Shown: positions 7,339-9,740 of the stretch, piece after piece
Layout of the letters: the number at the start of each line of letters is the position of its first letter
Numbering within the stretch: the stretch's first letter is position 1
Source: Salpingoeca rosetta
Taxonomy: Eukaryota > Opisthokonta > Choanoflagellata > Craspedida > Salpingoecidae
NCBI RefSeq assembly: GCF_000188695.1
Contig: NW_004754920.1
Span: forward strand, 1,145,260-1,209,259
DNA: 64,000 nucleotides
Direction of reading: 5' to 3'
Position numbers and translations under genes: made by a program
Notes under the pieces: model-generated
What the model was told of the DNA's origin: nothing
Database searches by the model: none
Seen by the model: the letters and a program-made list of their open reading frames with translations, nothing else

Positions 7339-9740
7339 TCATCATCATCGCCGCCCTGCACCCGCGCTGTTCTCCTTGCAAGCGACGCTTCAGCAGCAAG
7401 ACGAAGCCAATCACCTGCACAGCCTGTGCTCCACGCTCCTCCTGCATTCCCGCGGCCATAGCGTCGATCTGGCTTTGTGGAAGAACCTCGAGTCCTTGAC
7501 GGTTGCCCATGTGGACAGGCTCGTGATTCATGCTTACGCAGCAATGGCTGAGCGTGTCTCTTTCCATGACGTGGCACACCTTTGGTGGCAGACATCGCAG
7601 GACCAGCATGCGATCCGTGGGGAATTCCAGCACGTGCGGCACTGCACCCTCATCTACCAGGCGGCCCCCGTTGACGTGAGTGCGCTGGCTGGCGTCGCGT
7701 CTCTCAGGCTGCAGAGTCTGCGGCCGTCCCAGGGCGACACCCACCTCGACCTTGCACCACTTGTGGGCGTGGGCCAGCTGGAAATATTCGACAGGCAATG
7801 CATCAACTCACAGCCAGCCATTGCTGCGGCACGCGGCACCGTGGACGTCACCGAGTGCAACATCACCACTGACACCCTCGTTGCCACCCGCGTCAACATC
7901 ACACGGACCGTCTCCGTGCCACCTGGCCTGCACCTCCCCAACGCCACGCACATTGAGCTCCATGACGCTGCCACGAGTGTGCTCACCTGCCCCGCCCACC
8001 TCCACCAGCTCATCGTGCGAGACCGCCGTCGGCACTCCCACGCGCTGCCAGCGTTCACACACGCGTCGCAGGTGCACCTGGAGCTGAGCCACGCGCTCAC
8101 GCCCGAGCAGCTGACGGACCTCGGCAGGCGCACACGGCACCTCACCATCTACCGCAGCCTCGGGCACGTCAGCGACCTGTGCGGCATTCCAGAGAGCACG
8201 CACGTGTCACTGGTGGACGTGCGCGTGGATGCACCTGTCCCGCCGTGTGTGAAAGAGCTGCAGCTGACCATGCGCGGTGGGCTCTCAGCCAGCTTCGTGG
8301 CCAGCGTCCCACGCCTCTCGCTCCGTGGCAGCGTCCGGCGCGAGCGCATTCAAGACTTTCACCTTCTGTCTGGCCGCCCCACACCTTTGGTGGCAGACAT
8401 CGCAGGACCAGCATGCGATCCGTGGGGAATTCCAGCACGTGCGGCACTGCACCCTCATCTACCAGGCGGCCCCCGTTGACGTGAGTGCGCTGGCTGGCGT
8501 CGCGTCTCTCAGGCTGCAGAGTCTGCGGCCGTCCCAGGGCGACACCCACCTCGACCTTGCACCACTTGTGGGCGTGGGCCAGCTGGAAATATTCGACAGG
8601 CAATGTATCAACTCACAGCCAGCCATTGCTGCGGCACGCGGCACCGTGGACGTCACCGAGTGCAACATCACCACTGACACCCTCGTTGCCACCCGCGTCA
8701 ACATCACACGGACCGTCTCCGTGCCACCTGGCCTGCACCTCCCCAACGCCACGCACATTGAGCTCCATGACGCTGCCACGAGTGTGCTCACCTGCCCCGC
8801 CCACCTCCACCAGCTCATCGTGCGAGACCGCCGTCGGCACTCCCACGCGCTGCCAGCGTTCACACACGCGTCGCAGGTGCACCTGGAGCTGAGCCACGCG
8901 CTCACGCCCGAGCAGCTGACGGACCTCGGCAGGCGCACACGGCACCTCACCATCTACCGCAGCCTCGGGCACGTCAGCGACCTGTGCGGCATTCCAGAGA
9001 GCACGCACGTGTCACTGGTGGACGTGCGCGTGGATGCACCTGTCCCGCCGTGTGTGAAAGAGCTGCAGCTGACCATGCGCGGTGGGCTCTCAGCCAGCTT
9101 CGTGGCCAGCATCCCACGCCTCTCGCTCCGTGGCAGCGTCCGGCGCGAGCGCATTCAAGACTTTCACCTTCTGTCTGGCCGCCCCAAGCTCGCCATGCAA
9201 GAGTGCACCATTGACGGCGAGATTGCTCGTTGTCAGCACGTGCGCCTTCGCGACTGCAGCGGCGCGGCTGCTGTTGCTTCCGTTGACTGCCTGGTGGTCA
9301 ATGAGGCAAGGCTCGGCGCACCCGCAGACGACGATGACCAAGTTGCCAGCACCAACATCAACATCATCTGCTTCAGGCAGGCACGTGCGCTTCGCCTCAC
9401 GCGCGTGCGTGACGTGAGCACGTGTCGCCTCTGTTACTGCGACATTGAGGACTTTGCCTGCATGCAAGGCGTCAAGCGGCTTATCCTGTCAAACTGCTCC
9501 TTCAACAGCCTTGACGGCCTCCCGCCCGTGCAGTCTTTGGTCATTCGCAACTGCACCAACGCGCGAAATCAGCGCTGGGCAGACGTGGTGTTGGTGGACC
9601 GCCCGCCCTCGGAGCTGTCGTCTCTCCTTGCTGAAGCGCTGCGGCAGGAACAGCTCGCAGCCATCAGCCGAAAGCCGCCCAGGACGAAGAGGGGGCGCAG
9701 AGTGCAAGTCAGGGCGCGACGACGAGGTGGTGGTGACTGA
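6502..9740 (+). pseudogene. LRR-like/F-box-like repeat protein, frame broken by 805-bp tandem duplication
   Basis: I do not recognise a named family. From ATG 6502 the first frame (MSEESGAGGG, then RTFFNIMLTCRELYHDLPWA, weakly F-box-like) is open to TGA 7200. A second frame opens at 7166 and runs through acidic Gly/Asp, polyQ and polyHis runs into a Leu-rich solenoid with about 20-residue steps such as LHLPNATHIELHD, ASQVHLELSHALT and ESTHVSLVDVRVD. The switch near 7050-7200 needs a short intron or is a frameshift. An 805-bp unit (7575-8381) is repeated at 8381-9186 with two differences (7801/8606 and 8305/9110). Because 805 is not a multiple of three, translation leaving copy A stops at 8479, while copy B continues in the right frame to TGA 9740. 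Splicing at the single AGGT (donor after 8071, acceptor after 8876) would remove exactly 805 nt. The gene is either disrupted, rescued by splicing, or mis-assembled. Confidence 0.6.
7575..9186 (+). repeat. 805-bp direct tandem duplication (two copies)
   Basis: Copy A is 7575-8381 and copy B 8381-9186. The offset is 805 bp throughout; I found only two mismatches (c/t at 7801/8606, g/a at 8305/9110). Matching starts at the CA at 7575-7576 and ends at the CA at 9185-9186, so the junction at 8380-8381 shows 2-bp CA microhomology. Confidence 0.95.

Follow-up and report, generated by a model that had tools for sequence, protein, structure and literature searches.

An 805-bp tandem duplication in a member of a large Salpingoeca rosetta gene family, considered as possible gene decay and as possible intron gain

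The origin of introns is still debated, and few cases are young enough to reveal their source (PMC4974935). Among the cases outlined in the same article, that of ATP2A1, reproduced in ATP2A2, exemplifies exact intron gain by tandem duplication, and a potato RdRp gene exemplifies the imprecise form. Judged by titles and opening lines of abstracts, no choanoflagellate intron gain by this route is evident among the papers listed in literature searches. Here, we describe a stretch of 64,000 nucleotides (nt) from Salpingoeca rosetta (the window; contig NW_004754920.1, positions 1,145,260 to 1,209,259), in which one gene of a large family carries a tandem duplication of 805 base pairs (bp) containing the motif AGGT. 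The copies have diverged by only 0.25%; either the spliceosome already uses one of the predicted junctions or an AGGT-bearing duplication has merely broken a gene. Spliced, the locus would be a fresh and unusually young case of a route outlined in PMC3443670 and PMC4974935; as the route is already described, even proof of splicing would add one more example to a known kind. In our view there is about an even chance that this is instead a fresh, frame-breaking duplication in a failing member of the family, without productive splicing.

The gene and the duplication are laid out as follows in window coordinates.

6502-7200, plus strand: N-terminal open frame (MSEESG..., 232 residues), ending in TGA at 7198-7200 and aligning with residues 8-209 of the relative PTSG_01293
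7163-7200, plus strand: stretch where one single-base frame change suffices to connect the N-terminal frame with what follows, containing three head-to-tail ACAGGGA units (7172-7192)
7166-8479, plus strand: middle open frame, comprising a Q/H-run linker and a solenoid-like part, running through copy A to a stop in copy B
7575-8379, plus strand: copy A of the 805-bp tandem duplication
8268-9740, plus strand: C-terminal open frame, comprising copy B and the unduplicated 3' part
8380-9184, plus strand: copy B of the duplication, set apart by T at 8606 and A at 9111
9185-9186, plus strand: CA, junction microhomology equal to the first two bases of each copy

The two copies lie head to tail at an offset of 805 bp and, as an earlier note on this DNA had stated, differ at only two positions (2/805 bp). 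The first difference, C at 7801 against T at 8606, is silent (Cys); the second, G at 8306 against A at 9111, changes Val to Ile in copy B. A near-identical repeat of such size cannot be chance. A DNA search of the genome (54.4 Mb, the window lying on contig C14) with positions 7500-8500 found no further copy. The duplication is also the sole direct repeat of at least 80 bp in 337,840 surveyed letters (31-base exact seeds, simple repeats excluded); these letters, on which the base rate rests, comprise the window and 68 of 74 loci (the remaining six lie inside the window), with overlaps counted, and their 3-5 kb pieces were chosen by gene family and are no random sample. The earlier note held that the CA microhomology fits a real duplication. 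The dinucleotide is indeed present at 7575-7576, 8380-8381 and 9185-9186, but microhomology of at least 2 bp has a chance probability of 0.16 and says little.

Our inference is that both copies exist in the genome and came about through ordinary end joining or replication slippage. The alternative is an assembly in which a pair of reads or contigs sharing an 805-bp overlap, and differing at two positions through allelic variation or sequencing error, were joined end to end. According to the assembly details given in PMC4054682, the draft combined 454 reads of ~400 bases with Sanger reads, was assembled with Newbler and ARACHNE, and had its gaps closed through manual modification. A difference of 0.25% would fit read error or allelic variation, and homopolymer frame shifts in two relatives (loci L043 and L031, described below) may be residual errors of the draft. 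Against such an artefact, the window contains no N, and nothing comparable occurs elsewhere in the surveyed letters. Short-read assemblers more often collapse repeats of this kind than invent them, which we also count against it. On balance we regard an assembly artefact as unlikely, though well worth keeping in mind.

The effect of the duplication on the reading frame is clear. As reported earlier, the frame that enters copy A (7166-8479) runs off to a stop, at 8477-8479, and the downstream frame (8268-9740) is open to its end. The earlier note further held that excision of 8072-8876 would rejoin the ancestral frame, and for the downstream part this is correct: 7166-8071 and 8877-9740 both consist of whole codons, the join is in phase 0, and the local frame 7166-9740 is restored, 589 codons being open from 7166 onwards. 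The frame back to the ATG at 6502 is not restored, however, and the excision gives no whole protein because a second frame break, at 7163-7200, lies upstream. The lack of further stops should not be read as function. About four substitutions and 0.12 stops are expected over the coding sequence since the duplication, with a chance of 0.89 of no stop at all; stop-free frames are therefore expected at this divergence and give no sign of constraint or of a gene that still works.

The second break makes the gene discontinuous about 400 bp upstream of the duplication, where the frame of the start codon ends at 7198-7200 and the other frame opens at 7166. If a single frame change is responsible, it must fall within the 38 nt of 7163-7200. 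The ACAGGGA unit is 7 bp long, which like 805 is 1 modulo 3, and one unit fewer gives an open frame. The gene contains two frame-changing lesions in all, each 1 modulo 3: the 805-bp duplication and the shift within these 38 nt, at the ACAGGGA triplet. Candidate introns in this upstream region are poor, as the top frame-keeping pairs of splice sites score low or cut conserved sequence. With both sites in the linker, the best pair seen (7162-7321) scores 6.6, above three of the 21 inferred introns used for the scoring described below.

Intact relatives of the gene are found within a large S. rosetta family, with 82 matches to PTSG_01293 in the genome, counted exon by exon. The public protein matches are S. 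rosetta members only (PTSG_09227, PTSG_01293, PTSG_11206, PTSG_11156, PTSG_10517 and PTSG_10411). Grouping the PTSG_01293 matches by hand, with more distant or shorter matches left ungrouped, gives 23 family loci, of which 12 consist of one uninterrupted frame, two have an internal stop and nine, the present locus included, are frame-split or truncated. PTSG_01293 (742/742 residues) and PTSG_11206 (736/736) each align with the genome at 100% as a single uninterrupted match and consist of one open frame, and PTSG_10517 matches its locus at 100% over 734/801 residues. The matches of PTSG_11156, PTSG_10517 and PTSG_10411 are likewise in one piece save 59, 67 and 79 end residues, respectively, and these models may have a further terminal exon outside the region corresponding to the duplication. 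As the intact relatives read this region in a single frame, an intron here would be new, and the alignments suggest that the ancestral gene most likely had none at the site.

Frame breaks are not confined to the present locus. Three further members show two frames whose matches abut, leaving no space for an intron. By eye, these shifts correspond to a G7 run (L043:1459-1529), an extra T (L031:1375-1532) and an 8-bp tandem duplication (L024); the last lies in the conserved N-terminal part on the minus strand, at about bases 1500-1520 of the reverse complement (contig C12, ~1,569,270). These breaks may be real decay or errors of the 454 draft.

Public protein searches covering lengths of 158-2028 residues (288-915, 158-502 and 637-2028) found the six relatives and no record for the present locus, one of these ranges returning no protein at all; scoring was limited to proteins with short words in common with the query, and a record outside the searched lengths, or for the N-terminal part alone, would be missed. 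PMC4054682 names public RNA-seq of this laboratory choanoflagellate (SRP005692) and describes the S. rosetta gene catalogue as 98% transcriptome-supported. The missing record weakly suggests that the locus was not recognised as a working gene.

In these respects the locus resembles an unprocessed pseudogene of a multigene family, with a frame-breaking duplication, a second frame break and intact relatives. It differs in showing no further decay. Elsewhere the frames are open, and any loss of the gene would be either very recent or only apparent. On the reading that we prefer, the duplication broke the frame of one family member and the locus would be a freshly inactivated copy, whose loss a large family could probably afford.

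The competing readings invoke splicing, which we assessed with a model built from 21 S. rosetta introns inferred where matches to the myosin head family are split. These introns form a small, filtered set (adjacent myosin-head matches with small profile gaps or overlaps inside loci, one pair being uncovered), and exact splice sites were picked by fitting among 1-19 options each, one intron at only p 0.54; the model is rough. The inferred introns span 160-340 nt (median 270); their donors resemble MAG/GTGNG and their acceptors GCAG, the slash marking the exon boundary. A 587-nt candidate whose matches are separated by a wider profile gap did not pass the filter, and 340 nt is thus no proven upper limit. 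Three candidate sites matter here.

8072-8073, plus strand: best donor-like GT of copy A, CAG/GTGCAC, score 9.1
8395-8396, plus strand: the stronger of the two acceptor-like AGs, at the beginning of copy B, CACCTTTGGTGGCAG followed by AC, score 9.0, rank 5 of 139
8875-8876, plus strand: acceptor-like AG of the exact 805-nt excision, ACACGCGTCGCAG followed by GT, score 5.8, rank 19 of 139

The single AGGT per 805-bp unit claimed in the earlier note is present, with its GT at 8072 in copy A and a twin at 8877 in copy B. Within 7200-9740 these two donors score above the remaining 129 GTs, and that at 8072 beats 12 of the 21 native donors; the acceptor ending at 8876 beats 13 of the 21 inferred native acceptors. 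Together, the pair 8072-8876 sums to 15.0, above 17 of the 21 inferred introns (leave-one-out). The pair 8072-8396 does better, keeping the frame over 325 nt with a score of 18.1, above 19 of the 21. With acceptors limited to 9400 and below, it ranks first among 1258 frame-keeping GT-AG pairs, five of which outscore 8072-8876; it is also the best of 105 pairs of 150-360 nt, where the runner-up reaches 12.4. Beyond the 9400 limit, the pair 8072-9533 (1462 nt) scores slightly higher still, at 18.6. The predicted removal of 8072-8396 would leave an in-frame repeat of 160 residues (8397-8876). Acceptor 8396 is a copy of 7591, a position upstream of the donor; it is therefore the duplication that creates the order of the 325-nt pair.

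As a control, random tandem duplications of 802-808 bp, excluding multiples of three, were introduced into the longest open frame of each of 14 relatives, 60 per frame (n = 840). Five of the 14 frames are only 555-592 residues long, and L021 and L022 resemble each other at 97%; the 840 duplications therefore do not count as independent. An exact AGGT excision is offered by 806 of the 840. Since the motif is thus to be expected, its occurrence is no evidence for intron gain, and the control warns against taking an AGGT within a duplication as such. An exact excision scoring at least 15.0 arises in 188/840, and some frame-keeping pair scoring at least 18.6 in 178/840. Pairs of 150-360 nt scoring at least 18.1 are found in 55/840; by this standard the 325-nt pair is mildly unusual, although it was found after the fact.

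The reading put forward in the earlier note, intron gain in progress, is that the AGGT-bearing duplication gave rise to an intron occupying exactly 8072-8876. Its geometry is precise, its splice scores are respectable, the intact relatives run through the site in one frame, and the route is already described with in vivo evidence in the accounts cited above (PMC3443670, PMC4974935). Weighed against this, 805 nt exceeds all 21 inferred introns, although the filter may be biased towards short introns and left the 587-nt candidate outside the set. The five better pairs and 8072-9533 all outscore it, 188 of the 840 random duplications do equally well, other members are frame-broken too, and the break at 7163-7200 is left unrepaired. 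We therefore treat 'intron gain in progress' as a possibility and not a finding, and consider an intron of exactly this extent very improbable. As in ATP2A1/ATP2A2, the coding sequence would be preserved if precisely one unit were excised. The differences are that splicing is here predicted only, that the host gene has another frame break, that the exact intron would exceed all 21 inferred native ones in length and that imprecise pairs score better.

Imprecise gain comes closer to the potato RdRp gene, where, as outlined in PMC4974935, a new intron pairs a cryptic donor from exonic sequence of the first copy with an acceptor in the second. There the acceptor came from a pre-existing intron, whereas here both candidate sites lie in former coding sequence. 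On this account the duplication would have placed acceptor 8396 at 325 nt 3' of the best donor in the gene, 8072, the predicted product carrying the 160-residue solenoid repeat. The pair is the best up to 9400, its length is inside 160-340 nt and 55 of the 840 random duplications give a 150-360-nt pair as good. It was nevertheless picked post hoc among many pairs, and 55/840 is too common to stand alone. The 1462-nt pair scores higher once the 9400 limit is lifted, and the upstream break again persists. We consider imprecise gain quite unlikely. A bolder version would have an intron at birth: by reordering two cryptic exonic sites the duplication would have yielded a 325-nt intron at once, together with the 160-residue solenoid repeat, and the 805-nt excision would perhaps be a minor isoform. 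If this were true, the break at 7163-7200 would stem from an error in the draft or from a further young intron, and we consider so immediate an origin decidedly unlikely.

Two points tell against a failing gene without productive splicing. The splice signals across the duplication match native intron quality, so that rescue by splicing may be possible, and the break at 7163-7200 may reflect a sequencing error or conceal a weak intron (7162-7321), so that the gene would have a single lesion. In our preferred reading, any splicing across the copies would be incidental and cryptic, from donor 8072, with acceptor 8396 likelier than 8876. What probability remains falls to mixtures of these readings and to unknowns.

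Some further observations concern the family and the surroundings of the gene. Three pieces of the gene gave no Pfam family at the cut-off. A structural model of PTSG_01293 (mean pLDDT, predicted local distance difference test, of 72; six sequences) is strand-rich and solenoid-like from residue 255. Compared with the PDB, its top matches are leucine-rich-repeat proteins, all weak (best E 0.0038, template-modelling scores ~0.2), and the fold search returned no match with E of 0.001 or less. The model thus weakly suggests that the family proteins form a predicted solenoid resembling leucine-rich repeats. PTSG_09227 has its best match in the genome at 35-41% and its own locus was not found.

Several family members lie within ~70 kb of contig ends (C33 at ~34 kb and 728 kb, C38 at ~37 kb and C41 at ~314 kb). 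PTSG_10517 is 91% identical to the 34-kb locus of C33, and PTSG_11206 97% identical to that of C38; the likeness of members near contig ends perhaps reflects exchange between chromosome ends. Two kinesin-motor loci (C12:904868-906580 and C12:916780-918491) lie ~11.9 kb apart with near-equal match spacing and partly equal scores, and are probably a recent local duplication. Elsewhere in the window, CA-rich simple repeats form long arrays at 4750-4980 and 11430-11760.
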